This document shows, one piece after another, positions 1 through 42,715 of a DNA stretch of 64,000 nt; within the stretch, counting starts at the first letter, position 1, and each line of letters opens with the position of its first letter. Below the pieces are notes generated by a model. It saw nothing but the letters and a program-made list of their open reading frames with translations, did not search any database and was not told where the DNA came from. Source of the stretch: an uncultured Planktomarina sp. GTDB lineage: Bacteria; Pseudomonadota; Alphaproteobacteria; Rhodobacterales; Rhodobacteraceae. Where the stretch lies: contig CALSQF010000006.1 in assembly GCA_943788425.1 (NCBI GenBank), positions 310,001 through 374,000 of the forward strand. Direction: 5' to 3'. Made by a program: the position numbers and the translations under genes.

Positions 1-510
1 CGTTTAAAGTCTACCATGATCTATGTCACCCATGACCAGGTCGAGGCTATGACGCTCGCCGACAAAATTGTCGTCATGCGGGCCGGGCGGGTTGAGCAAA
101 TTGGCTCTCCCATTGATCTTTATCGCAACCCTGCGAATGCTTTTGTGGCGCAGTTTATCGGCAGTCCGAAGATGAATTTTTTCACGGAAGCAGATTTGGC
201 CAAAAACGGTAAAAAGTCTTTGCCAGCAGCGGCCAGTGGCGCGCATATTGGCATTCGTCCAGAGCATCTGACGGCCTGTACTGAGGCTAAGGCGATTGTT
301 GGGGGGACATTGGATCTCGTGGAGCAATTGGGCGAATATGCTTTGGTTCACTTGGTGGGTGCCTCTGGAGAGGCCTTCATAGTGAAAATGGAGCATCCGC
401 CGGCAGCCGTAAAAGGTGAAACCATGTGGTTTACGGCGCAAAGCGATATTCTGCACCTGTTTGACCAAAGCTCGGGTTTGCGCATCGACGCCGCTAGCAC
501 ATCCAGTTGA
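1..510 (+). CDS. Sugar-type ABC transporter ATP-binding protein, C-terminal part (5' end outside window)
   Basis: The reading frame is open from base 1, so the gene starts upstream of the window. The visible 169 codons begin just before the H-loop ([13 protein letters not shown]), whose His contacts the ATP gamma-phosphate. They continue through the [14 protein letters not shown] segment typical of the MalK/UgpC/SmoK subfamily and end in a TOBE-like regulatory domain (GIRPEHL). Such subunits energise import of sugars, polyols or glycerol-3-phosphate at the inner membrane. Walker A, the signature motif and Walker B are off-window, as are the permease and binding-protein genes, so the substrate cannot be stated. 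The gene converges on the hpaB remnant. Family assignment is firm, substrate unknown. Confidence 0.88.
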
Positions 511-618
511 TATAGGCGCATCGCGTCCTGTTATGCCTTTGAGGATGCACAGTCACCACGCCCCATGCGGGGAAATGACCTCCCTATGAGAGAGACAATC
601 GGCGCCGGGCCTCAGGCT

Positions 619-2079
619 TTAGGCCTGCGCTAAAAGATCCTCGACGCGGGCAATTTTGCTGTCCCTATCATAGCTGTCAAAATAGACAGAGTTCATGATT
701 TGCGGCGGACCGAAGAAGAAGCGCTCATACAGCGCTTGGCGATTGCCGAAGCCGGACACGGCAATGTCATGGGCCAGGCGATACAGGGCCACGCGATCGC
801 GGCTGTCCATATGGGTCAGTTGGAAATATTTCTCCACATCTCCTGCCATGGCATTGCTGAAATCTGCCTCGGTTGGCGTCGCCATGAGGGAGGAGGAACC
901 GAGGAGTTGCAGGATCTCCACCATCCGCGGGTACATTTTGGGAAAGAGATTGCGCGAGACGTCCAAAGGGCCGCGCAGGGGAATGAAATTGCCCCATTGA
1001 TCCTCATGGGCCTGTTGTTCCGCCGAAAAGAGCAAGGCGCGCACGGTTTCGGCCATCAACATCACTTCGGCAATCATACCCTTTGTGGCCAAATCCTTGT
1101 CGCGACCCGTCGCCTTGGCAATGGCGCACATGACGCCGACCATGAATTCTGCCTTGGCCAGCTTTCCACAGGCCACTTGATGCGCCATATGCACCACCGC
1201 ATTGGTTTGGGCGAAGGCTTGGTTGCATAGGTTTGGTTCGCCATACATGAAAACCCGCTCCCAGGGGACCAAGACATTGTCAAAAATGACCACCGCATCC
1301 ATCTCCTCATAGCGAGAGGACAGAGGGGCATCGAAATGTGATTTTCAATGGTCATAGCTGTCTCGACAAATCATCTTGAGACCCGGGGTGGCGATGGGAA
1401 TGGCAAAGGCGAAGGCAAAGGGAATATTGCTGTCATCGGCTCGTAAAAGCGTTGAGGGGAAGACCTCAATTTCGTCAGATAATGGCCCCAAAGTCGCCAA
1501 TAGCCTTGCGCCTTTCACGATGATCCCCACATCGGTTTCTTTGACGACATGCAGTGCAACCTCTTCGTCGAATTTGCCGCTAGTGGCCTGTGCATGTGAG
1601 ACAGATGGGTTCACCAAAGTATGGGTCAGAACGCGATCATTGAGCCGGACCTCATCATAAAACTGGGTAATATTTTGAACGAAATCCGCTTGTCCCTTGC
1701 TGCCCTGCGCTAGAAAACCTGGGGCGTGAGCAAAGGCCATAACGGAGGCGTTTTTATAATCGGGAGTACAGCCAAACATGCCATTGGATCATGTGGCCCA
1801 TTCATAGAACGCGCGGCCGCGCCGCACCACATCGTCCTTAGACTTGGGCACCAAGTGGGAAACGGCGCAGCGAATGCCCTGGCCGTCTTCATAGGTCACG
1901 ATATCGCGGTAGGCCGGTTCATATTGCCGATCCAAAAAACCCGCCAAAGAGGCCGCGCCTCCGGCCATGCCTGGTTCAGCGGTCACATCTTGAACCCGCG
2001 CTCCACGCGTCCAAATTTCACGGTCATCGCGCAGCCCCTCGAGATACTGCGCTCCAGTTCTGATTCCAGCGTTTCTCAT
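619..2079 (-). pseudogene. hpaB: 4-hydroxyphenylacetate 3-monooxygenase, oxygenase component, with two in-frame TGA codons
   Basis: HpaB is the FADH2-using oxygenase that converts 4-hydroxyphenylacetate to homoprotocatechuate. The frame spans 487 codons including the stop, a normal HpaB length, and is recognisable from the N-terminus (MRNAGIRTGAQYLEGLRDD) to the C-terminus. It holds two internal TGA codons. One is at 1789-1791, where the family has Trp (EWAT-stop-SNGMFG). The other is at 1345-1347 (RDSYDH-stop-KSHFDAPLSS). Everything on both sides remains in the same frame, with no indels. The start overlaps the hpaR stop by 4 bp, so it was translated from the hpaR message. Truncation at residue 96 would remove the catalytic core. 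I read it as a recently inactivated gene; sequencing error at two positions is the main alternative. Confidence 0.85.
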
Positions 2080-2513
2080 GCCAAATTCAGTTTCTCTGCG
2101 GGGTCTGATAACTTGTCTAAAATTCGATTAAACTCGGCCCATTCAGACTCTGTCACGCGCTGCATGAAATCGTCATGAATGCGCTCTACCATGGGCATCA
2201 TATGCTCCATCAAGGCGCGCCCCTTTTGGGTGGGGATGATATGCACATGGCGGCGATCTTCTGTAGAGCGCAGGCGCCCGATGAGGTTTTTCTTCTCGAG
2301 CCGATCTAGAATTCCGACCAATGAGGGTGGGGGCAAAAGGGTGATCTGCGAGATCTGTGCTGAGGTGAGATGCTGTTTTTCCCAAAGTGCGCGCAGAACT
2401 CGCCACTGCTGGTCCGTCAGATCATTCGCTTGAAACAGACACCGATAGCTTGGCATCACCCGGTCTAGAGAGCGGCTGAGGATCATCGGCAGGCTGTCCA
2501 GGAATTTCGGCAT
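2076..2513 (-). CDS. hpaR: MarR-family regulator of homoprotocatechuate degradation, HpaR
   Basis: This 145-residue winged-helix protein matches the HpaR branch of MarR. It has the N-terminal MPKFLDSLPMILSRSLDRVM helix, the recognition-helix region (LLPPPSLVGILDRLEKKNLI) and the wing (RSTEDRRHVHI). Known HpaR proteins repress the hpa degradation genes and release DNA on binding 4-hydroxyphenylacetate or related aromatics. The gene is divergent from hpaF, and its stop overlaps the start of the hpaB remnant (ATGA). A 172 bp divergent promoter region lies directly upstream and holds a candidate operator. The regulator looks intact although the first enzyme of its pathway does not. Confidence 0.9.
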   Translation of the reverse strand: MPKFLDSLPMILSRSLDRVMPSYRCLFQANDLTDQQWRVLRALWEKQHLTSAQISQITLLPPPSLVGILDRLEKKNLIGRLRSTEDRRHVHIIPTQKGRALMEHMMPMVERIHDDFMQRVTESEWAEFNRILDKLSDPAEKLNLA

Positions 2514-2685
2514 TTACCACTCATCTATGAATTATTCACATATTAAGTAAATTGAGAGGCTCCGCTGTGTAAAAAAATCTATGGTCGCTGCTTTAAAATG
2601 CAGAAATTGTGGATCTATGCGCACTCCTCACTTGTCATTTTCTGTAAGGTTGCGATGATTTCGACAGTAGTGCTAAGGACAAACC
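2514..2685. promoter_or_regulatory. Divergent hpaR/hpaF promoter region with a candidate HpaR operator
   Basis: This AT-rich stretch separates hpaR from hpaF. At 2528-2538 it contains TGAATTATTCA, two perfect 5 bp arms around one central base, in the size and symmetry range of MarR-family sites. It lies only 14 bp in front of the hpaR start, where binding would block hpaR transcription. A Shine-Dalgarno sequence AAGGA sits at 2675-2679, seven bases before the hpaF ATG. Assignment of the palindrome to HpaR is inference from position and symmetry. Confidence 0.5.
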
Positions 2686-3093
2686 ATGCCACATCTGACC
2701 GTTCAATATTCCCAGAATTTAGATCAAGACGTTGATATGTCAGAGCTTTGTTCGGTCATGAGTGTGGCCATGCAAGAAACGGGCGTGTTTCCTATGGCGG
2801 GCATAAGGGTGCGGGCGCATCCGATGCCGCACTATTTCGTCGCTGATGGACATCCCAAGAACGCCTTTGTTGATATGGTTCTACGCATGGGAGAGGGGCG
2901 CAGTGATGCGACCAAATCAGAGGTTGGTGCGTTTTTGATGGCGCGTGCAGAGGCCGTTTTTGCTCCGCTGCTGGCGGAGCCACATTTTGCACTGTCGTTG
3001 GAAATTGTGACGATCTCCAAACCCTTCAGCTTGAAAAAAAACAGCATTCATGCGCGGATCAATGCGCCGTCTTTCAAAGGAGAAAACCCATGA
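2686..3093 (+). CDS. hpaF: 5-carboxymethyl-2-hydroxymuconate delta-isomerase
   Basis: This 135-residue protein belongs to the CHMI/tautomerase-like family. It begins Met-Pro (MPHLTVQYSQNL), and the proline exposed after Met removal is the catalytic base. The enzyme shifts the double bond of 5-carboxymethyl-2-hydroxymuconate to give the oxo isomer used by the next enzyme of homoprotocatechuate meta-cleavage. It acts in the cytoplasm as a trimer in known members. It is the first gene of a three-gene operon, and its TGA overlaps the ATG of the next gene. AAGGA at 2675-2679 supports the start. No sign of damage. Confidence 0.9.
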   Translation: MPHLTVQYSQNLDQDVDMSELCSVMSVAMQETGVFPMAGIRVRAHPMPHYFVADGHPKNAFVDMVLRMGEGRSDATKSEVGAFLMARAEAVFAPLLAEPHFALSLEIVTISKPFSLKKNSIHARINAPSFKGENP

Positions 3094-3947
3094 AGTTTGC
3101 ATCCATTCGCGCGGCGGGAGAGGAACTATATGGCGCTGTGACCGACGCTGGCTTTATTGCCCTGTCAGCAAACTTCCCACAATGGGCGAATTTAACCGAG
3201 GTGATCTGCGCGCAGGCCTTGCCGCAGCTGGCTGAAGCGGCTGAGGGGGCCTCGGTCACCCATGGTTTTGGCAGCTTCACCTATGAGATGCCCGTGGCGG
3301 GCGGTGAGAAGATTATTTGCGTCGGGGTCAATTTTCCAGATCGCAATGCGGAATACAAAGATGGCAGCCAAGCGCCTGCGAATATGTCGCTATTTCCAAG
3401 GTTTGCCCGTGGATTTGTGGGGCATGAACAGGCCTTGATCCGGCCCCCAGAGTCGCATCAACTCGATTATGAGGGCGAAATTGCCATTGTCATCGGCAAG
3501 GCAGGGCGGCGCATTTCTCAAGCCCATGCATATGATCACATTGCCGCTATGACCCTTTGCAATGAGGGGACGATCCGAGATTGGGTGCGCCACGCGAAAT
3601 TCAACGTCACCCAGGGTAAGAATTGGGACAAATCTGGTGCTATGGGCCCGTGGTTGGTGCCTTTTACGGAGGCTGCGCAGCTGGACGATGTTCGCATCAC
3701 CACCCGAGTAAACGGGGAGTTGCGTCAAGATGATCGCACCAGCCGCATGATTTTTCCCATCCGCCGCCAAATTGAATATATCTCCACGTTCACCACCTTG
3801 ATGCCGGGTGATATCATTGTCACGGGAACGCCGACGGGTGCCGGCGCGCGGTTTGATCCGCCAATCTATCTCAAACCCAGTGATATGGTTGAAGTTCACG
3901 CTGATGGCCTCGGGACCTTACGCAATTCTGTTGAGGATGAGACATGA
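3090..3947 (+). CDS. Fumarylacetoacetate hydrolase (FAH) family protein, probable homoprotocatechuate-pathway decarboxylase/isomerase (HpaG type)
   Basis: This 285-residue protein has the FAH fold: an N-terminal variable region, a middle signature (ICVGVNFPDRNAEYK) and acidic metal ligands in LDYEGEIAIVIGKAGR and KNWDKSGAMGPW. Family members use Mg or Mn to hydrolyse, decarboxylate or isomerise oxo-acids. Between hpaF and hpaH, and overlapping both by 4 bp, it probably decarboxylates 5-oxopent-3-ene-1,2,5-tricarboxylate, as HpaG does. E. coli HpaG is a tandem fusion of two FAH domains; this gene encodes only one, so it may do only one of the two half-reactions or both. The symbol is withheld for that reason. 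Confidence 0.8.
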   Translation: MKFASIRAAGEELYGAVTDAGFIALSANFPQWANLTEVICAQALPQLAEAAEGASVTHGFGSFTYEMPVAGGEKIICVGVNFPDRNAEYKDGSQAPANMSLFPRFARGFVGHEQALIRPPESHQLDYEGEIAIVIGKAGRRISQAHAYDHIAAMTLCNEGTIRDWVRHAKFNVTQGKNWDKSGAMGPWLVPFTEAAQLDDVRITTRVNGELRQDDRTSRMIFPIRRQIEYISTFTTLMPGDIIVTGTPTGAGARFDPPIYLKPSDMVEVHADGLGTLRNSVEDET

Positions 3948-4741
3948 CCCCCGCAGAGATCTCCCGCGCGGCGCAGGCCTTATTTGAGGCTGAAAAAAGC
4001 CATAAACAGATCGGACTGTTGACCCGCCCCCATCCTGGGATGACGATGGATGATGCCTATGCGGTGCAAAAAGCCTTGGTCAAGCTTAAGATTGCCGATG
4101 GCCGGCGGGTGATAGGCTGGAAAATTGGTCTGACCTCCAAGGCTATGCAATATGCTTTGAATATTGATATCCCGGACAGCGGGATTTTATTTGATGATAT
4201 GTATTTTGAAGATGGTGCGACTGTGCCTGCTGGACGGTTTATCCAGCCGCGCATTGAGGCGGAAATCGCCTTTGTGATGAAAACAGATTTAGACGGCGCG
4301 GCAGGGCGCGATGAGGTGCTGGCAGCAACGGATTATGTGTGCCCCTCGCTGGAAATCCTCGATACGCGGATTGAGCGCGTTGATGCGCACACAGGGCATA
4401 CCCGTAAAATTTATGATACGATCTCCGACAATGCGGCGAATGCTGGCATCGTTTTGGGTCGCGCGCAACATGATCCCAGAACGTTTGATTTGCGCTGGGC
4501 TGGCGCGATTTGCAGCCGCAATGACGAGGTTGAGGAGACAGGTCTTGGCGCCGGCGTTTTAAACGATCCGGTTATGGGCATCGTTTGGTTGTCCGAACGT
4601 CTTGAAGCCTATGGGCAAAAAATTCGAGCGGGTGATATTGTTCTGTCTGGTTCGTTTATTCGCCCGATTGAAGCGCGGCCACAGGATGAATTCGTCGCTG
4701 ATTTTGGCCCCTTTGGGCAGGTATCCATTGGATTTGCCTGA
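3944..4741 (+). CDS. hpaH: 2-oxo-hept-4-ene-1,7-dioate hydratase
   Basis: This 265-residue protein matches HpaH along its length, with the family's GWKIGLTSKAMQ motif, the RIEAEIAFVM acidic motif (metal ligands Glu-x-Glu) and the C-terminal VLSGSFIRPIEA. It belongs to the hydratase/decarboxylase branch of the FAH superfamily and adds water to 2-oxo-hept-4-ene-1,7-dioate, giving the substrate of the aldolase HpaI. It is last in the hpaF-FAH-hpaH operon and starts in the ATGA overlap with the previous gene. The aldolase gene is not next to it. Frame intact. Confidence 0.9.
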   Translation: MTPAEISRAAQALFEAEKSHKQIGLLTRPHPGMTMDDAYAVQKALVKLKIADGRRVIGWKIGLTSKAMQYALNIDIPDSGILFDDMYFEDGATVPAGRFIQPRIEAEIAFVMKTDLDGAAGRDEVLAATDYVCPSLEILDTRIERVDAHTGHTRKIYDTISDNAANAGIVLGRAQHDPRTFDLRWAGAICSRNDEVEETGLGAGVLNDPVMGIVWLSERLEAYGQKIRAGDIVLSGSFIRPIEARPQDEFVADFGPFGQVSIGFA

Positions 4742-4780
4742 GCACAGCTCTGGTCATATCCGCGATCGGGCGCCCCCCCC

Positions 4781-4808
4781 AAAAAAACTCGGGTGCGGGG
4801 CCCGAGTT
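4781..4808 (-). terminator. Rho-independent terminator of the response-regulator gene
   Basis: The arms AACTCGGG (4786-4793) and CCCGAGTT (4801-4808) pair perfectly around a 7-base loop. On the minus strand the stem runs directly into a T tract (4781-4787 are A on the plus strand). It therefore fits termination of the leftward response-regulator transcript. It could also stop rightward hpaH transcripts, although there is no T tract on that side. Confidence 0.7.
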
Positions 4809-4867
4809 GAGGCTGAGGGAAGAGAGACGCCTTGCGGTAATGCCCTGGCGTCAGGGGTTGCAGGTGG

Positions 4868-5554
4868 CTAAAGTGACAAGCGATAGCCGCCGTTTTCAGT
4901 GATTAAGATGCTGGCTTTGCCGGGGTCGGGTTCAATTTTCTGCCGAAGGCGATAAATATGTGTTTCCAGCGTATGAGTCGTGACACCGGCATTATAGCCC
5001 CAAACTTCATGTAAAAGAATATCGCGCGGCACCACATGTTCGGTGGCGCGGTACAAAAATTTTAATATATTTGTTTCTTTTTCGGTCAGGCGAATCTTTT
5101 TGTCATCAGCTGTGACCAATATCTTGATTGATGGCTTGAACTTATAAGGTCCAAGGGAGAAGATCGCATCCTCGGATTGCTCATGCTGGCGCAGCTGTGC
5201 GCGTAGGCGGGTCAAAAGCATGGGGAACTTGAAGGGCTTGGTGATGTAGTCATTGGCACCTGCAGCCAGACCCAATATTGTGTCGGAATCTGTATCATGG
5301 CCGGTGAGCATCAAAATGGGGCATTTGACGCCCTGCTTGCGGATCAAGCGGCACAACTCACGCCCATCTGTATCTGGCAGACCTACGTCCAGCACCATGA
5401 GATCATAACTTTGTTGCTTAATCTTTTCCAAAGCTTCCGCACCGCTGCTGCACTCATAGACATCAAAATATTCGGTCATAAGAAGCTGTTCGCTTAAAGC
5501 CTCTCTCAGATCTTCATCGTCGTCGACTAAAAGAATTTTATTAAGCTGTGCCAT
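4868..5554 (-). CDS. OmpR-family response regulator (CenR-like)
   Basis: A receiver domain (KILLVDDDEDLREALSEQL, phosphoacceptor Asp in LMVLDVGLPDTDG, Lys in ITKPF) is joined to an OmpR winged helix (LTEKETNILKFLYRA, THTLETHIYRLRQKI). The start at 5554 is chosen because GAGAGG lies 5 bases upstream; an ATG 10 codons earlier has no such site. The sequence resembles the Rhodobacter regulator reported as CenR, which controls envelope and division functions, but this rests on memory of the family and no symbol is given. No histidine kinase lies next to it, so it is an orphan in this window. It is divergent from ribA. Confidence 0.85.
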   Translation of the reverse strand: MAQLNKILLVDDDEDLREALSEQLLMTEYFDVYECSSGAEALEKIKQQSYDLMVLDVGLPDTDGRELCRLIRKQGVKCPILMLTGHDTDSDTILGLAAGANDYITKPFKFPMLLTRLRAQLRQHEQSEDAIFSLGPYKFKPSIKILVTADDKKIRLTEKETNILKFLYRATEHVVPRDILLHEVWGYNAGVTTHTLETHIYRLRQKIEPDPGKASILITENGGYRLSL

Positions 5555-5697
5555 TCTACCTCTCAGTTTCATAAGATAGCCCATACCTGCGCGCTGGGGC
5601 GCTTTATTGCAAGATTTTCACCAGAGATCTCACGACCTTGTGTCACAAATGAAGGAATTGTTTCAATTCACCTCTAAAAGGGGCTATCGAAGGCTCT

Positions 5698-6753
5698 ATG
5701 ACTCTATCACCTTCTCCTGTCGAGCTGCGCGCTCGCGCCTTGACCGATCTTCGCATGGGCCTGCCTGTGGTCATTGATATGCCTCAGCCGCTTGTGGTCT
5801 GTGCGGCTGAGACACTGACACAAGACAGGCTGCATGCGTTGCGCAGTTTGGGCGAGGTGCAAGCCGTTTTGTCAAAGTGGCGGGCCGATACGCTCAAGAT
5901 CAATGCATACGATGGGGATGTGGCGCGCATTTCTGTGCCGCGGTCAGTCGATGCACGTTGGTGCCAAGCGGTGGCCGATCCAATACTTGACCTGAGCTAT
6001 CCGATGAAGGGTCCATTCCAGACCCTGCGCGGCGGATCCGTGGATGGGCAACGTCTTTCTGTGGCGCTTTTGAAAGCGGCGCATCTTTTGCCCATGGCGA
6101 TCACGGTGCACAGCTTAGAGCCGCTCAGCAGTTTAACACATTTGCCAGTTGATATCTTGTTGGAGCCTGGCTTTGCGCATGTGGTCTCTGCGCAGCTTCC
6201 ACTGGAAGTTAGTCAGGCGGGTCGTTTGCATGTGTTTCGCCCGGATGGCGGGGGGGATGAACATTACGCAGTTGAGATCGGGACGCCCGATCGGGCGGCG
6301 CCGGTCTTAACGCGCTTGCATTCAGCATGTTTCACTGGGGATATTCTGGGATCCTTGAAATGTGACTGCGGTCCACAGCTAAAAGGTGCTTTGGCGCAGA
6401 TGGGGCAGGAAGGTGCCGGGATCCTACTGTATCTTAATCAAGAAGGTCGCGGTATTGGCCTGGCGAATAAAATGCGGGCCTATGCGCTGCAGAGCCAAGG
6501 CTTTGATACGGTAGAGGCCAACCATCGCTTAGGGTTCGAAGATGATGAGCGGGATTTTCAGATCGGCGCAGAGCTGCTTAAAAGCCTGGGTTTTTTATCC
6601 ATACGTTTGATGACCAATAACCCCAATAAAGTTGCCCGCTTGCAGGACCAAGGTCTTATGGTTAGCGAACGCGTGCCGTTGGTTGTTGGCGGCACAGCGC
6701 AGAACCACGGCTATCTCCAGACCAAGGCGGAAAAATCTGGGCATTTGCTATGA
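5698..6753 (+). CDS. ribA: GTP cyclohydrolase II with N-terminal DHBP-synthase-like region
   Basis: The C-terminal half (about residues 165-351) carries the GTP cyclohydrolase II hallmarks: zinc cysteines in LHSACFTGD and LKCDCGPQL, the EGRGIGL GTP-binding loop and RLMTNNPNK near the end. The enzyme opens GTP to start riboflavin synthesis. The N-terminal 150 residues are positioned like a 3,4-dihydroxy-2-butanone-4-phosphate synthase domain, but I see no RGHTEA-type or TGVTAADR-type active-site motif. That half is therefore probably non-catalytic, as in the RibA form common in alphaproteobacteria. AAGG lies 4 bases before the ATG. The next gene starts inside its stop codon. Confidence 0.9.
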   Translation: MTLSPSPVELRARALTDLRMGLPVVIDMPQPLVVCAAETLTQDRLHALRSLGEVQAVLSKWRADTLKINAYDGDVARISVPRSVDARWCQAVADPILDLSYPMKGPFQTLRGGSVDGQRLSVALLKAAHLLPMAITVHSLEPLSSLTHLPVDILLEPGFAHVVSAQLPLEVSQAGRLHVFRPDGGGDEHYAVEIGTPDRAAPVLTRLHSACFTGDILGSLKCDCGPQLKGALAQMGQEGAGILLYLNQEGRGIGLANKMRAYALQSQGFDTVEANHRLGFEDDERDFQIGAELLKSLGFLSIRLMTNNPNKVARLQDQGLMVSERVPLVVGGTAQNHGYLQTKAEKSGHLL

Positions 6754-7244
6754 GCGCTTTGGATATGGTCTATGCCTCGGGTCGCCTGCATTATCTTGGT
6801 CGCGCCATGGCGGTGACCTGCGGGCGCGGAGGCGTGCGCGATGATAAGATCGAAGGGGATGGGGCAACCCCGCGTGGTGTCCTGCGCATTGCTGCGCTGA
6901 TGTATCGCCCCGACAGGGTGGCACCGCCTGCCCCTTGGGCGGTTCCAATCTACCTCGGCGATCTGTGGTGTGACGATCCAGCTCACAGATCGTATAATCA
7001 GCTTTGCCGCGCGCCTTTGCAGGCCAGTCATGAAAAGATGCGCCGTGCAGACCCGCATTATGATATCGTGTTGATCACCGATTGGAATTGGCCCAAGGCG
7101 CGTCCGGGGGCAGGCTCTGCAATTTTTATGCACCAATGGCGTCGGCCAGGTGCACCTACAGCGGGCTGTATTGCGATGGCGCGGCCAGACATCCGTTGGC
7201 TGGCCAGCCGGGTCGCGCCAGGCACGCGGCTTATCGTCCGTTAA
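6750..7244 (+). CDS. L,D-transpeptidase (YkuD) fold protein without signal peptide
   Basis: This 164-residue protein ends in the YkuD active-site pattern: a His in IFMHQW, then the RPGAPTAGCIAM stretch with the nucleophilic Cys. Classic members cross-link peptidoglycan or attach proteins to it in the periplasm. This one begins MSALDMVYASGRLHYLGRAM with no signal peptide or membrane segment, so an export route is not obvious. It overlaps ribA by 4 bp and is probably co-transcribed with it. Start is fixed by that overlap. A cytoplasmic role on another amide or thioester substrate is possible. Confidence 0.82.
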   Translation: MSALDMVYASGRLHYLGRAMAVTCGRGGVRDDKIEGDGATPRGVLRIAALMYRPDRVAPPAPWAVPIYLGDLWCDDPAHRSYNQLCRAPLQASHEKMRRADPHYDIVLITDWNWPKARPGAGSAIFMHQWRRPGAPTAGCIAMARPDIRWLASRVAPGTRLIVR

Positions 7245-12544: not shown

Positions 12545-15089
12545 TTACGATACGTCCGGGTACAATGATTAGCTTCTTAGGTGTAGCACCATCTAGCGCT
12601 TTTATCACAGCGTTATTCTGCAATACCAAGGCTTCCAACTCTTCTTTGCCCATGTCTTTGGCCACAGTGATTTCATCACGGCGCTTGCCGTTTATTTGGA
12701 TCGGTAAGGTCACCTCATCTTCAACCAAAAGCGCCGGATCTGCTTTTGGCCAGGGAGCATCGGCAATCAGGCCCTGCCCGCCTTGATGAGCCCAAATATC
12801 CTCTGCCAAATGCGGCGTCATCGGAGCCATCAATTGCGCCAAGGTCATGATCGCCTCATGCTGCGCGGCATATCCAGCCTTGGATTTGGCCAAGGTCGCG
12901 GTAAAGCCATAGAGCTTGGCAATCGCTGCATTGAAACCAAAACTCTCCACGCCCGAAGTGACGTCCTCAATGGTTTTATGCAGCGTTCGCAGGAGTTCTT
13001 TGTCGCAATCGCCAATTTGATTTTTGTCCATATTGGCGATTTTATCACAAAGCTGCCAGACGCGGTTCAAATGCTTAAACGCCGCTTCCGCACCAGAGGC
13101 CGTCCATTCGACATCGCGCTCGGGCGGGCTATCGGACAGAACAAACCACCGCGCCGTATCGGCGCCATAGCTGCTGATGATGCTGATTGGATCAACAACG
13201 TTATTTTTCGATTTCGACATCTTTGCTGAGGGCACAATTGTGACCTCAGCGCCTCCCTCAAGCAAGAAGACCTTGCCATCGCGCAGCGCCACCTCTTCGG
13301 GGTAGTGATAGATAGGGCGGCCATCCTTGCCCTCTGATTTATAGATTGCATGGGTGACCATGCCTTGGGTGAACAGCGCGTCAAACGGTTCAATCGCAGA
13401 CGGCGGCAAATGGCCACAAATTTGCATCGCGCGGGCAAAGAAGCGCGAATAGAGCAGATGCAAAATCGCATGTTCTACACCACCGATATATTGATCGACG
13501 TTCATCCAATAGCTGGCCTCCGCCATATCCGTCGGTGTGGTGGCATTTGGGGCCGTGAAGCGCGCATAATACCAAGAGGAATCCACAAAAGTATCCATTG
13601 TGTCGGTCTCGCGGTGGGCCTCCTTGCCGCAAGCTGGGCAGGCGCAGTTGCGCCAGGTGGGGTGGCGATCCAGCGGGTTCCCAGGAACGTCAAATGTCAC
13701 ATCATCAGGCAGGCGGATCGGTAGGTTTTCCGTCTTCTCCGGGACCACGCCGCAGCTGCCACAATGCACCACTGGTATCGGACATCCCCAATAGCGCTGC
13801 CGGCTCAATCCCCAATCGCGCAGACGATACTGCGTTTTGCCTATGCCAAGGCCCTGCGCTTCGGCCCAATCGATGGTGGCGTCAATCGCCTCTTGCCCCG
13901 TGGCCTCTTGCAGGCCTGCAGGTTGATCGACCCAGCGAACCGTTTCAGTTTTGGCCGGTACAAAAGCCACATCTGACACGGGAGTATCCTCGTTGAGCGC
14001 AAAGAAGGTATCAATCACTGGCAGATCGTATTTACGCGCAAAATCGAGGTCGCGCTGGTCATGGGCGGGACAGGCGAAAATTGCGCCCGTACCGTAATCC
14101 ATCATCACAAAATTGGCGACCCAAACAGGCAATGGCGCGCCGCCAAGTGGGTTTTGCACGGTGATACCGGTATCAAAGCCTTTCTTTTCAGCCTTTTCCA
14201 TCGCCGCTTCTGTGGTGTCCATTTTCTTACATTCGGCGCAGAACTCTGCCAAGGCGGGGTTGTGCACCGCCAGGCTTTGGGTCAGCGGGTGGTTTGCGGC
14301 CAGGCCAATGAACGAGGCACCGACCAAAGTATCGGGACGGGTGGTGTAAACGGTCACGCCCTCATGACCATATTGCGGTGTGGTCAGCGGGAAGGTCATT
14401 TCCAACCCGCGCGATTGGCCAATCCAATTTTCCTGCATCAAGCGGACTTTGGCGGGCCAATTGTCCAACCCGTCTAAGGCGCTCAGCAATTCACCTGACA
14501 TGGATGAGATGTTGAAGAACCATTGTGTGAGCTCGCGGCGTTCAACCTCGGCATTGGAACGCCAACCTTTGCCATCAATCACCTGCTCATTGGCCAGCAC
14601 TGTCATATCGACCGGATCCCAATTGACCATCGCATTCTTGCGATAGACCAATCCATTGGCAAGCATATCGAGAAACAAGGCCTGTTGTTGTCCGTAATAT
14701 TCAGGATCACAGGTGGCAAATTCGCGCGACCAATCGATCGACAGGCCCAAGGGTTTCATCTGTGTGCGCATCGTTGCGATGTTGTCATAGGTCCATTCTT
14801 TTGGATGCCCACCTATAGCCATCGCGGCATTTTCAGCTGGCATGCCAAAGGCGTCCCAACCCATTGGATGCAAAACATTATGTCCGGTAGACAGCTTGTA
14901 GCGCGCAATCACATCGCCCATGGTGTAATTGCGTACATGGCCCATGTGAATGCGGCCCGATGGATAGGGAAACATTTCCAGGACATAGTATTTCGGACGA
15001 TCGGCAGTCGCCACGGCTTTGAAGGTCTCGGCTTCGGCCCAAGCCTCTTGCCATTTGGCTTCGATTTCGGCGGGGGAATAGCTGCTCAT
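12531..15089 (-). CDS. leuS: Leucyl-tRNA synthetase
   Basis: This 852-residue class I synthetase has the HIGH-type motif [15 protein letters not shown] near residue 45 and the KMSKS loop ([11 protein letters not shown]). The connective-peptide editing domain sits between them ([16 protein letters not shown], where Thr and Asp are editing residues). The insertion with [15 protein letters not shown] and the zinc-like cysteines also match. It charges tRNA-Leu with leucine and edits misactivated amino acids. It is first in the leuS-lptE-holA-GST operon. Intact. Confidence 0.98.
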
Positions 15090-15268: not shown

Positions 15269-16100
15269 TTAGAATGCGAAAGACGCTGGAAGGTCATGCC
15301 TTCTTTGTAGTCTTTTGCACTAACTTAGTCGTTGCTATCATCGTTGTTGCTGTCATCTGCGTAAGATGCCAAGAGCGGTGCATCGCCTCCGAGGTCACAG
15401 CTCAGACCAGCATATGTATCTTCACTGCCGTCATCTGCACCGATGAAGAGGTTCATGCCGTTGCCCATTTCGTAGGACACGTTAACATTCCAGTCATCGC
15501 TTTCGTCCGTCGCAACAGTCAGACTCATTGCACCTTCGGCATAGACAACTTTAACATCCCAGTTGTTTTCCGCGCCAGTTGCGCTTTCTGCAACATAAGA
15601 CGCTGTTGTGGTAAACACGCCCGTTGGGTAGCTGACTTCAACACCGGTTAAACCGCCATTGTCGTTAGTGGCATGACCCAATGCAACAGTTGCACTGCCC
15701 CAAGTTGTGCTCACACTCACACCGGTTTTGGATTGCTGTGACGCTGCTGAGTTGTAGTCATTGTCCAGCCAAGCGGTGTTTGCGTTTTGAGTGGCCAGTG
15801 CATAGGTGAGTGCGCCTGCAGTGCCTGTAACGCCGAGCGAGATGTAATCTGTTTCGTTACCTGGAGTGGCAAGATTTGTGTCGTCACCCAAAGAGACGCT
15901 GATTTTTGCGCCACCAAGGGTCATGTCGGCACGGATCACCATTTCGCCGTCTGCTGCGCGGAATGCATCTTTGTCCATGGAGCCAACAGATGACCATGCA
16001 TTTTGAACAGCATGTTTTGTGTCACCATAGTGGATGCCGGAATCGGCATTTGTCAAAGAGATCAGAGCGTCGGAGGCAGAGATATCGTTGCCTTGCTCAT
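15269..16100 (-). pseudogene. Porin gene remnant, 5' end replaced by integrase fragment
   Basis: Read leftward, the frame encodes about 260 residues of a porin barrel (EQGNDISASDALISL, GEMVIRADMTLGGAKISVSLG, NVNVSYEMGNGMNLF). The signal peptide and first strands are missing: upstream of about 16100 the frame runs into a stop and the DNA becomes an integrase. The 3' end is also damaged. A TAA follows NDDSND at 15325-15327. Beyond it the family ending is still visible but shifted by one base (AKDYKEGMT, then ASFAF and TAA at 15269-15271). A porin terminator follows. It shares style with the intact porin at 8154 but is not a copy of it. Confidence 0.8.
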
Positions 16101-16655
16101 TCGGAAATCAAAAGTTTGCTGAGCGTCTGTAAGCGCAGTACACATCCCTTCTTGCATTCCTTCGTTAAACTGCTCTTGCTCACTGGGGCTCGAAAGAGCG
16201 AGCTGCGCCGGGCCAAATGGACCTGTATTGATTTGCAAAAAGGCGAGCTTTTTGTTGCCGTCAGTAAAAGTGGCCGCAGCCGCACAGTGGTTTTGAGCAA
16301 AAAAGCCCTGGCCGCTCTTGAACAGATGAAATTGCGCTCGAAGGCTCTGGGCCTGCCGATCACTCGAGACAGCTGGGTTTTTGCCAACCCGCGCACGGGT
16401 CAACTCTACACTAGCTTGCACATCGCGTTTTTTACAGCGCGAGACAGTGCGGGCTTAAGCTCCGTTCGGATGCATGATTTGCGCCACACTTATGCCAGCC
16501 TGTTGATTAATAACGGAGCCAGCATTTACGAGGTTCAGCAATTGCTGGGGCATTATAATATCTCTATGACCGAACGCTATGCCCGACTTTTTCCTAATAC
16601 TTTGCAAGATCGGGTTGATATCGTCGCCGAGTCGCTTGCTTTTGACCGTATCTAA
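16083..16655 (+). pseudogene. Tyrosine recombinase (phage-type integrase), catalytic-domain fragment
   Basis: About 190 codons encode the C-terminal catalytic domain of a tyrosine recombinase: Arg I in LLTGARKSELRRAKW, the beta-hairpin Lys in SKSGRSRTVVL, HDLRHTYASLL (His-x-x-Arg), LLGHYNISMTERYARL (His and nucleophilic Tyr). All five catalytic positions are present. The N-terminal arm-binding and SAM-like domains are absent. In their place the same frame runs on as meaningless antisense of the porin remnant, so any longer protein read from further upstream is an artefact. It marks a past mobile element or island whose remainder has been deleted. Confidence 0.75.
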
Positions 16656-21331: not shown

Positions 21332-21985
21332 TTAATTCGCAGCGAGCGAGAAAGAGAGGCTTTTGCGCAAATGTGAATTCAATAGGTCTATCGCCGTCTC
21401 GGAGTCGCGTGCGAGTGCGGCTTCAAAAAATCAGTTGCTGTTCTTCGAGGGCTTTGGCCCAACGATAGTTGCGCAGCACCAGTTGGTAGCCAATGTATTT
21501 TTCGTAAATATTTTGGAAGACTGCGATCATATGCCGAGAGTTGCAGGCCCGCACCAAGGCAAAATGAAACTCCCAATCATAGTGCAGTTGGCGTTCTAGA
21601 CAAACGTCCTCGCCGGCTATAATTTTCTTGCCAATCATGGCCAATTTGTGGTGGGCAGATACCAGATTGCCCTCCCAATTTTCATCACCAAAAGCCAAGG
21701 AGGCTTTGAGAGCAGCGCATTGCAGTAATACGCGGAGATTGGACAGCTCAATCAGGTCCCCGTTGAACATTGTACGAACCAAAAAACCGCGTTGCTTGGG
21801 CGCGTCCACAAAACCATCACTAGCCAGCCGGTTAAGTGTTTCTCTTAAGGTTTAAACACTAACTGAGTACTGCATTTTTAAGGTGTCTAATTTCAGCTTT
21901 TCCCCGGCGTTAGAGCGCCGGCGATAATGTCGGATTTAAACTTCAAATAAACCGAAGATCCGACCGTTGTCGCGGCACTCGTCAT
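21332..21985 (-). pseudogene. GntR/FadR-family (FCD) transcriptional regulator with three lesions
   Basis: Pieced together across frames, the gene reads as a full GntR regulator. The start is at 21985 (MTSAATTVGSSVYLKFK) and the winged helix follows (SDIIAGAL, AGEKLKLDTLKMQYSVSV, TLRETLNRLASDGF). An FCD effector domain comes next (YDWEFHFALVRACNSRHM). The end (EAALARDSETAIDLLNSH) stops at 21332-21334. Three defects break it: one base lost near 21909-21912 between GAL and AGEK, an in-frame TAA at 21852-21854 inside the recognition helix, and one extra T in the six-base run at 21425-21430. It probably once controlled the adjacent catabolic genes. The longest open part starts after the DNA-binding domain, so no functional repressor can be made. 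Confidence 0.82.
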
Positions 21986-40849: not shown

Positions 40850-41352
40850 GTCCAAACCTCGGGCTGCTGAGAATAGGCGATATAAAGCGGATGTTTAGGA
40901 TGCCCGGCCTTTGACAGGCCCAAATGCAACACCGAACGGCCCGACGCGCGCAAAAGTGCCTCGACCTGAGGTCCGCGGTTCAAATGCGCGCCATGGGTGC
41001 CCCAGGCAGCAATCACCTGATCGCCCCACTGGCAGGCCTCAAGAATCGCCGCGTCATTCTCGGGGCCGATGGGATCAAGGGCGGTGCGCATCTTACGCGG
41101 GTCGGTGTCGCGCCAGGCAAAGATATTGGTCACGCGAAACCCGCCAAACCCCAAGCCCCGCACCCGCCGCTCGCAGCGCTCAACCGTGGGGTCGTTTTGC
41201 ACCTCGGTGGCGGTGGAGGGGTTGAGCATGACAAAGCTCAACCGCCGTCCCTGCGGATCCCAAACGCGGGTCAGAGCATAGCGATACCGTTCGCAGTCGG
41301 AATAGACCGCGACGCTGGGCGCATCGTCCTTGATATGGGAGCGGGTAATCAT
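40846..41352 (-). CDS. DUF1643 domain protein
   Basis: This 168-residue protein has the DUF1643 pattern: RYRYALTRVWD, VMLNPSTATEVQNDPTVERC, NIFAWRDTDPRKM, and AAWGTHG. The fold resembles the uracil-DNA-glycosylase superfamily, but no enzymatic function is established. Its stop overlaps the start of the dehalogenase-like hydrolase, so the two are translated together. No signal peptide or membrane segment is seen, suggesting a cytosolic protein. Confidence 0.85.
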   Translation of the reverse strand: MITRSHIKDDAPSVAVYSDCERYRYALTRVWDPQGRRLSFVMLNPSTATEVQNDPTVERCERRVRGLGFGGFRVTNIFAWRDTDPRKMRTALDPIGPENDAAILEACQWGDQVIAAWGTHGAHLNRGPQVEALLRASGRSVLHLGLSKAGHPKHPLYIAYSQQPEVWT

Positions 41353-41512
41353 AGCCTATGCTGGGTCATTGTGCGGCGGAGTTCAAGAGCGTTTGCCCCG
41401 CGCAGCCTATGGGCAAGTCTCTGATATATTGTCATTTGTCAAAATATTTTGCAGGCTCGACCCGGCCGACACATTTGGGCGGCGATATTTGATAACAAAG
41501 TGATTTGAACCG

Positions 41513-42715
41513 ATGAGCGATAGCAAACCTGACCAGATTTTAGCAGAGGAGAACAACGACCCTTGGGTGAAGCTGATCCTCTGGACGCAAGAATCATCGT
41601 GCCCATCCTACCGTTGGAATGGGTTTATGAAGTATTTGGGTGTAGAAAGATTGAAGCTCTTGGAGCCCTTGAACCTAACAGAGGAACAGCGCTTAGAAGT
41701 TATGAAACGGTTGGGGGCTGACAGTGTGGAATATAGGCGCGCACGGCCATTGCTTGACGATGACCTCGCAGATGCGAAAAAATTGTTTCCGATAGATACC
41801 GATTTCGGGGATATGGGGCCGGCGATAACGATCGACAACCACAGGTTTAGCGAGGCGTTTGATTTCAAGGGCGCGTTTTTTTTGAGCACAATCAGGTTTG
41901 AAAATTGTTGTTTCGAGCGCGGCGTTGGTTTTTATAATGCAAATTTTGAATGGGGCCTCATTTTCGGGTTCTAAATTTTTGGATGCAGCCAATTTCGAAC
42001 AAGCTTAATTCCGCGTTGCTGCTATATTCAATAGCGTCAAATTTAGTTGACCGGTTAATTTTTATTGCCAGCGGCCTGACGATCATCTTGCATCAAATTT
42101 TAGGTATGCGCTATTTGAAACAAGTTCCCTAGCTTCCACGGTCGAAATTTTCATCCGGCCTGTAAATTTCATGGTGTGATTTGGCCAGAAATTCCAAAAA
42201 GAAATGGTCCAAAAAAAACTTAAGGCAGTGTCGAAGGCGCTTTGCTGAACCATATCACCGCCTACGAATACATCCGCACCCAAGCCGAAAAAATCGGGCA
42301 GCTGTAGCTGCGTAAAGAGATGATCTGGCGGGAGCTGGCTTGCCGCGCGGAGATGGCAGAGCCATCTTTTGAACGGCCCTTGCGCAAAGCCTACGGCTGG
42401 ATTTGCAATCATGGCACCTCGGTTGGCCGGCTGGCTCTCGCGCTGCCGTACCTTTGGTGCATCACCTTTTTTGCCTGGCGCGGATGGGCCGCACATGAGC
42501 CGGCGATCACGACCTGGGATGTTCTTTACCACACGGGCGGGCGAATGTTGCAGTTTATCAGCGGTCATGCCTATGTCGAAGAGCAAACCCTTAAAGCGAT
42601 ATGCGCCGCGCCGCCTGCGTTGCATTTTCTCTGCACCATCGCCGCGGTCCTCAGCCCGTTCTTTTTGTTTCTCATGGCCTTGGCGCTCAGGCTCAAATTC
42701 CGCATGTCGATCTGA
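41513..42715 (+). pseudogene. Decayed pentapeptide-repeat membrane protein gene
   Basis: The first 150 codons (MSDSKPDQILAEENNDPWVK) give an N-terminal domain and the start of pentapeptide repeats (FDFKGAFFL, FYNANFEW). A one-base shift near 41960-41974 follows: the stop at 41974 is out of step with SGSKFLDAANFEQA in the next frame. Repeat-like pieces continue with stops. From 42167 the C-terminal half is readable: FHGVIWPEIPKRNGPKKT, TAA, GALLNHITAYEYIRTQAEKIGQL, TAG, LRKEMIWRELACRAE. A tail with two hydrophobic helices ends at 42715. This order is that of larger membrane-bound pentapeptide-repeat proteins. Several independent defects make it a pseudogene. Confidence 0.65.

Follow-up and report, generated by a model that had tools for sequence, protein, structure and literature searches.

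Oxygenase components of 4-hydroxyphenylacetate 3-monooxygenase of the HpaB-1 type (TIGR02309), represented by Thermus thermophilus HpaB (TtHpaB; PDB 2YYG, 2YYI and 2YYJ), are FAD-dependent enzymes for which Arg100, Tyr104 and His142 have been described as catalytic key residues, Arg100 stabilising the C4a-hydroperoxyflavin (PMC10537072). The genus Planktomarina belongs to the marine RCA cluster, whose genomes carried 4.9-15.3% pseudogenes in a 2025 survey (PMC12661815). The main text of that survey contains neither 'hydroxyphenylacet' nor 'homoprotocatechuate', and 'pseudogene', 'aromatic', 'hydroxyphenylacet' and 'protocatechuate' are absent from the main text of PMC10675870; among the titles and abstract beginnings listed on Planktomarina, hpaB, pseudogenes and homoprotocatechuate, we recognised no report of the gene considered here, those naming hpaB bearing Xanthomonas titles. 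Here, we describe an interrupted hpaB in a 64,000-nucleotide stretch (the window) of one contig from an uncultured Planktomarina sp. (genome G000; 2.54 Mb in 19 contigs, 93% complete). The window copy resembles HpaB-1 proteins in its full-length similarity, a score over the family cut-off and retained Tyr and His residues, and differs from them in two internal stops, a Cys at the Arg100 position and relaxed constraint, which together mark it as very probably a dead member of the family. Compared with the unitary pseudogenes of the RCA cluster and Planktomarina, it shares the decay of a native single-copy gene and differs only in which gene is affected.

Results

The hpaB frame runs without a change of phase to a terminal TAA (Table 1). 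Read through its stops, it scores 529.2 bits against TIGR02309 (cut-off 480.2) over residues 7-484, and it is a real coding relic, since by arithmetic about 23 stops would be expected in a random frame of equal length. Alignment with eight open orthologs from the genus (two of them slightly shorter at one end) shows 74-97% identity and no internal gaps; indels are absent, and the two TGA codons are the only lesions to the frame. The initial annotation, which had described one frame with these two TGA codons and no indels and had proposed alignment to intact HpaB proteins as a check, agrees with this alignment.

Table 1. Features of the window, with positions counted from its first nucleotide.
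Feature	Position	Strand	Remarks
hpaB, 4-hydroxyphenylacetate 3-monooxygenase oxygenase component, HpaB-1 type (highly probable pseudogene)	619..2079	-	487 codons, single frame, 2 internal TGA
In-frame TGA, hpaB codon 97	1789..1791	-	Trp in 8/8 other genus rows of the alignment
In-frame TGA, hpaB codon 245	1345..1347	-	Gly in 8/8 other genus rows; no Trp and no Cys further out
hpaB codon 104, Cys	1768..1770	-	Arg in 54/54 relatives; equivalent of catalytic Arg100 of TtHpaB
hpaR-like MarR-family regulator	2076..2513	-	Open; constrained; TIGR02337 101.8 bits, below the 121.2 cut-off
hpaF, 5-carboxymethyl-2-hydroxymuconate isomerase-like	2686..3093	+	Open; 89.2 bits, below the 215 cut-off
hpaG-like, fumarylacetoacetate hydrolase family	3090..3947	+	Open; constrained; below curated cut-offs
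hpaH, 2-oxo-hept-4-ene-1,7-dioate hydratase	3944..4741	+	Open; constrained; 380.2 bits, cut-off 351.5
Porin_4 remnant	15286..16131	-	First part missing; internal TAA; also a TGA in poorly aligned first residues
Phage-type integrase, partial	16092..16652	+	Adjoins the Porin_4 remnant
GntR/FCD regulator	21426..21985	-	Frameshift and in-frame TAA; C-terminal end shortened; G011 homolog open, 217 residues
Pentapeptide-repeat protein	41513..42712	+	Heavily decayed; nine stops against an open G011 homolog

Residues at the affected columns were read from 54 relatives (56 of 80 loci found, L093 to L148, minus L116 and L133, which carry internal stops). At codon 97, Trp stands in all 45 relatives with 60% identity or more, but among the 9 below 60% in only 2, and TtHpaB has Asp; the earlier description of this residue as Trp in the family holds for the closer relatives and fails for the more distant ones. 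Codon 245 is Gly in 32/45 of the closer and 4/9 of the more distant relatives, and otherwise Glu, Asp, Ala, Asn, Ser or Pro. None of the 54 has Cys at either column, or Trp at codon 245. One of the two homologs set aside, from a metagenome bin (isolate casp150-mb.9; L116:1893-3323), carries one TGA in frame, at match residue 265, and its flanking residues place this codon at an invariant Trp of the Planktomarina proteins.

The set of catalytic residues is incomplete in the window protein. Tyr108 and His153 are retained at the positions of Tyr104 and His142, and the Cys of codon 104 aligns with Arg100 of TtHpaB (2yyg). Of the seven replacement residues of the window gene, six are also seen among the examined relatives; the exception is Cys104, absent from all 54. 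The initial annotation had taken the residues flanking the stops to be conserved, which does not hold at codon 104, where Cys replaces an otherwise invariant Arg. Because this catalytic Arg is lost, a product made by read-through would probably be inactive.

Twenty Planktomarina genomes were compared, with completeness from 67 to 100%, such that some absences may be gaps. An hpaB ortholog is present in 11 of them, open in nine (G002, G003, G005, G006, G009, G011, G014, G016 and G019; in G014 open up to the contig end, past residue 480) and broken in two, G000 and G001. The nearest open ortholog is 97% identical in DNA to the window gene, and the two window stops are present in no examined relative; comparison with other strains was a check that had been proposed, and set against these open orthologs the window copy carries disabling lesions. 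G001 has a frame change between residues 219 and 252 and two TAG stops, shares no lesion with the window gene and, as its sequence indicates, broke its hpaB independently. No ortholog was found in the other nine genomes, eight of which have no match (many of the 20 are incomplete); the ninth, G017, has a 49-base DNA match only, plus distant protein matches of 27-28%. An intact second hpaB, which would have spoken against loss, was not found in the window genome (93% complete), where PF03241 and PF11794 match once each, both at the window locus. A plasmid search returned 271 records, every one below 60% identity. Profile searches for HpaC and HpaI passed neither cut-off in any of the 20 genomes, including those with an open hpaB.

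The hpaB genes of G000 and G002 differ at 43 codons, with 2 stops, 7 replacements and 6 silent changes on the G000 side, 5 replacements and 17 silent changes on the G002 side, and 6 silent changes of ambiguous side. On the G000 side, one stop and 5 replacements were polarised by script; the other stop and 2 replacements were assigned by residue, this second stop because all three outgroups carry Gly. In a codon model with stops masked, omega is 0.33 on the G000 branch and 0.04 elsewhere (p = 0.0009), a value not different from 1 (p = 0.17), and it stays at 0.34 (p = 0.002) when G006 is removed. The replacement residues at codons 184, 463 and 469 recur in G006, and leaving these codons out lowers omega to 0.19 (p = 0.04 against the background, p = 0.08 against 1). 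Constraint on hpaB is relaxed along the G000 branch, with a weaker signal without the three G006-like codons, and the signal comes from few changes, six taxa and a recombinant region. The weight of this test is lowered by the G006-like codons, the occurrence of all replacement residues but Cys104 among relatives, the hpaF result and the recombination mosaic described below; the odds for a pseudogene are unchanged by this, because the stops and the loss of Arg are independent of the selection test.

The hpaB start overlaps the end of the hpaR-like gene by 4 bases, and hpaF, hpaG and hpaH lie divergent from this pair. All four neighbours end in TGA, and hpaH alone among them scores over its NCBIfam cut-off. 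Regulator, isomerase and hydratase had been called intact, as their open frames bear out, and the latter two downstream, a term which the divergent arrangement contradicts. In separate runs per gene, chosen for the recombinant region, omega on the G000 branch is 0.13 for hpaR, 0.10 for hpaG and 0.12 for hpaH (p = 0.03, 0.007 and 2e-10 against 1), hpaH being slightly above its own background (p = 0.04). For hpaF it is 0.28 (p about 0.5 against the background, p = 0.2 against 1), and the share of replacements in hpaF is high against two near relatives, at 16/34 and 13/33 differing codons. Continued selection on the neighbours is demonstrated for hpaR, hpaG and hpaH only. Window positions 1-6800 form a recombination mosaic, with 94-98% identity to G002 over 51-2800, 96-97% to G005 over about 3051-4050, and 76-92% to the relatives compared past 4050.

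At least three further genes in the window are broken relative to G011 (Table 1). On contig 11 of the same genome, pcaB survives as two fragments of 69 and 76% identity (L076:11333-11932). The pcaC and pcaH genes, which lie near pcaB in G011, have no match in the 18 kb around this remnant, and pcaH has none in the whole window genome. The absence of pcaH is not special by itself, because a match is missing from 8 of the 20 genomes in all, this one and its near relative G002 included. From these sequences a second aromatic pathway appears to be eroded in the window genome. In G017, hpaH is in three frame-shifted pieces, and the hpaF- and hpaG-like frames are open.

The window genome retains hpaE and hpaD on contig 11, both over their cut-offs, and four of the nine genomes in which no hpaB ortholog was found (G004, G007, G012 and G017) keep hpaD over its cut-off. 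A PLP-dependent decarboxylase gene lies near or beside hpaD in the hpaD/hpaE clusters of G004, G012 and G019 (loci L082, L081 and L084), and contig 8 of the window genome encodes a relative 66% identical to that of G019. The presence of this decarboxylase in G012 and G004, which have no hpaB match, hints at another feed into homoprotocatechuate.

Discussion

The window hpaB is, with high probability, a young unitary pseudogene, as judged from the consensus sequence of a single genome of its species, 93% complete, in the missing part of which another hpaB could lie. The gene is shown to carry two nonsense codons, a lost catalytic Arg and further replacements under relaxed constraint; it is open in close relatives, and no second copy was found. 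Translation would stop after 96 codons, and the gene would yield no active 4-hydroxyphenylacetate 3-hydroxylase. The initial annotation had posed very recent decay and a special reading of TGA as alternatives, of which the former is supported by the open close orthologs, the private stops, the relaxed constraint and the loss of Arg. It had also called the loss of the first enzyme intriguing, and it is less so with hpaB broken in 2 of 20 genomes and not found in 9 of 20, many of them incomplete. Given the broken genes of the window, the pcaB remnant, the absence of pcaH and the pseudogene share of RCA genomes, hpaB is one of several genes that this lineage has lost.

An error of assembly or sequencing, by which the organism would have an intact hpaB and the stops would be consensus errors in the contig, is very unlikely. 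The sequence is a consensus from one assembly of 19 contigs for one genome of the species, and an open ortholog exists at 97% DNA identity, all of which would suit such an error; yet the stops, the loss of Arg104 and the other replacements are concentrated in one gene with relaxed constraint, indels are absent from it, and further genes belonging to these pathways are disrupted both here and in related genomes. A survey of the window also speaks against error. From 82 reading frames of G011, 65 had a hit and 56 passed a filter on identity and coverage, which by construction discards badly truncated genes; over 16,789 aligned codons, 50 of these 56 show no internal stop. The six exceptions comprise hpaB, four frames judged over-long and one judged antisense. 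In the four (starting at 12592, 25070, 29429 and 41005) the stops lie within the first 40 residues of the predicted open reading frames and were taken to lie ahead of the true starts, and the last (40867-41418) overlaps the 41005 gene on the opposite strand and was judged spurious. An apparent internal TGA in the aldehyde dehydrogenase of G000, G003 and G011 proved to be a terminal stop inside the match.

A special reading of TGA, as Trp, as selenocysteine or by programmed read-through, such that full-length HpaB would be made, is extremely improbable: a single unbroken frame with both stops of one kind, no indels and constraint on hpaR, hpaG and hpaH would fit it, but the catalytic Arg is lost and its product would probably be inactive, hpaB constraint is relaxed, TGA is an ordinary terminal stop, and no tRNA-Sec over the gathering score was found. 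Reassignment to Trp had been thought unlikely on the ground that TGA ends hpaR and hpaF, and the argument now extends to hpaG, hpaH and 22 of the 56 filtered window genes, which end in TGA as do their orthologs; 50 of the 56 are free of internal stops, and codon 245 is never Trp. For selenocysteine, the highest-scoring tRNA-Sec (RF01852) match of the genome reaches 39.9 bits, under the gathering score of 47, and none of the 54 relatives has Cys at a TGA column. For programmed read-through, Arg is lost at codon 104, and Rfam gave no match in window positions 1-5000 at E up to 1.

Under the pseudogene reading, the still open hpaR and ring-cleavage half of the pathway (hpaE, hpaD, hpaF, hpaG and hpaH) may be explained by a recent loss and/or by homoprotocatechuate being obtained otherwise. 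Homoprotocatechuate may come from other precursors; recent loss alone is the simpler and a sufficient account for the lower pathway staying open. A wider reading, that members of Planktomarina repeatedly lose the catechol-forming first step of 4-hydroxyphenylacetate catabolism and often retain ring cleavage, the cells living on homoprotocatechuate from neighbours or other precursors, is unlikely on the present comparison; if it were true, the window would represent one such loss caught soon after the event. A possible recoding signal is here settled as ordinary, recent gene decay, which is at most one more case of a marine lineage caught early in losing a catabolic gene, and which may help to test whether the ring-cleavage half of a pathway outlasts its first enzyme.
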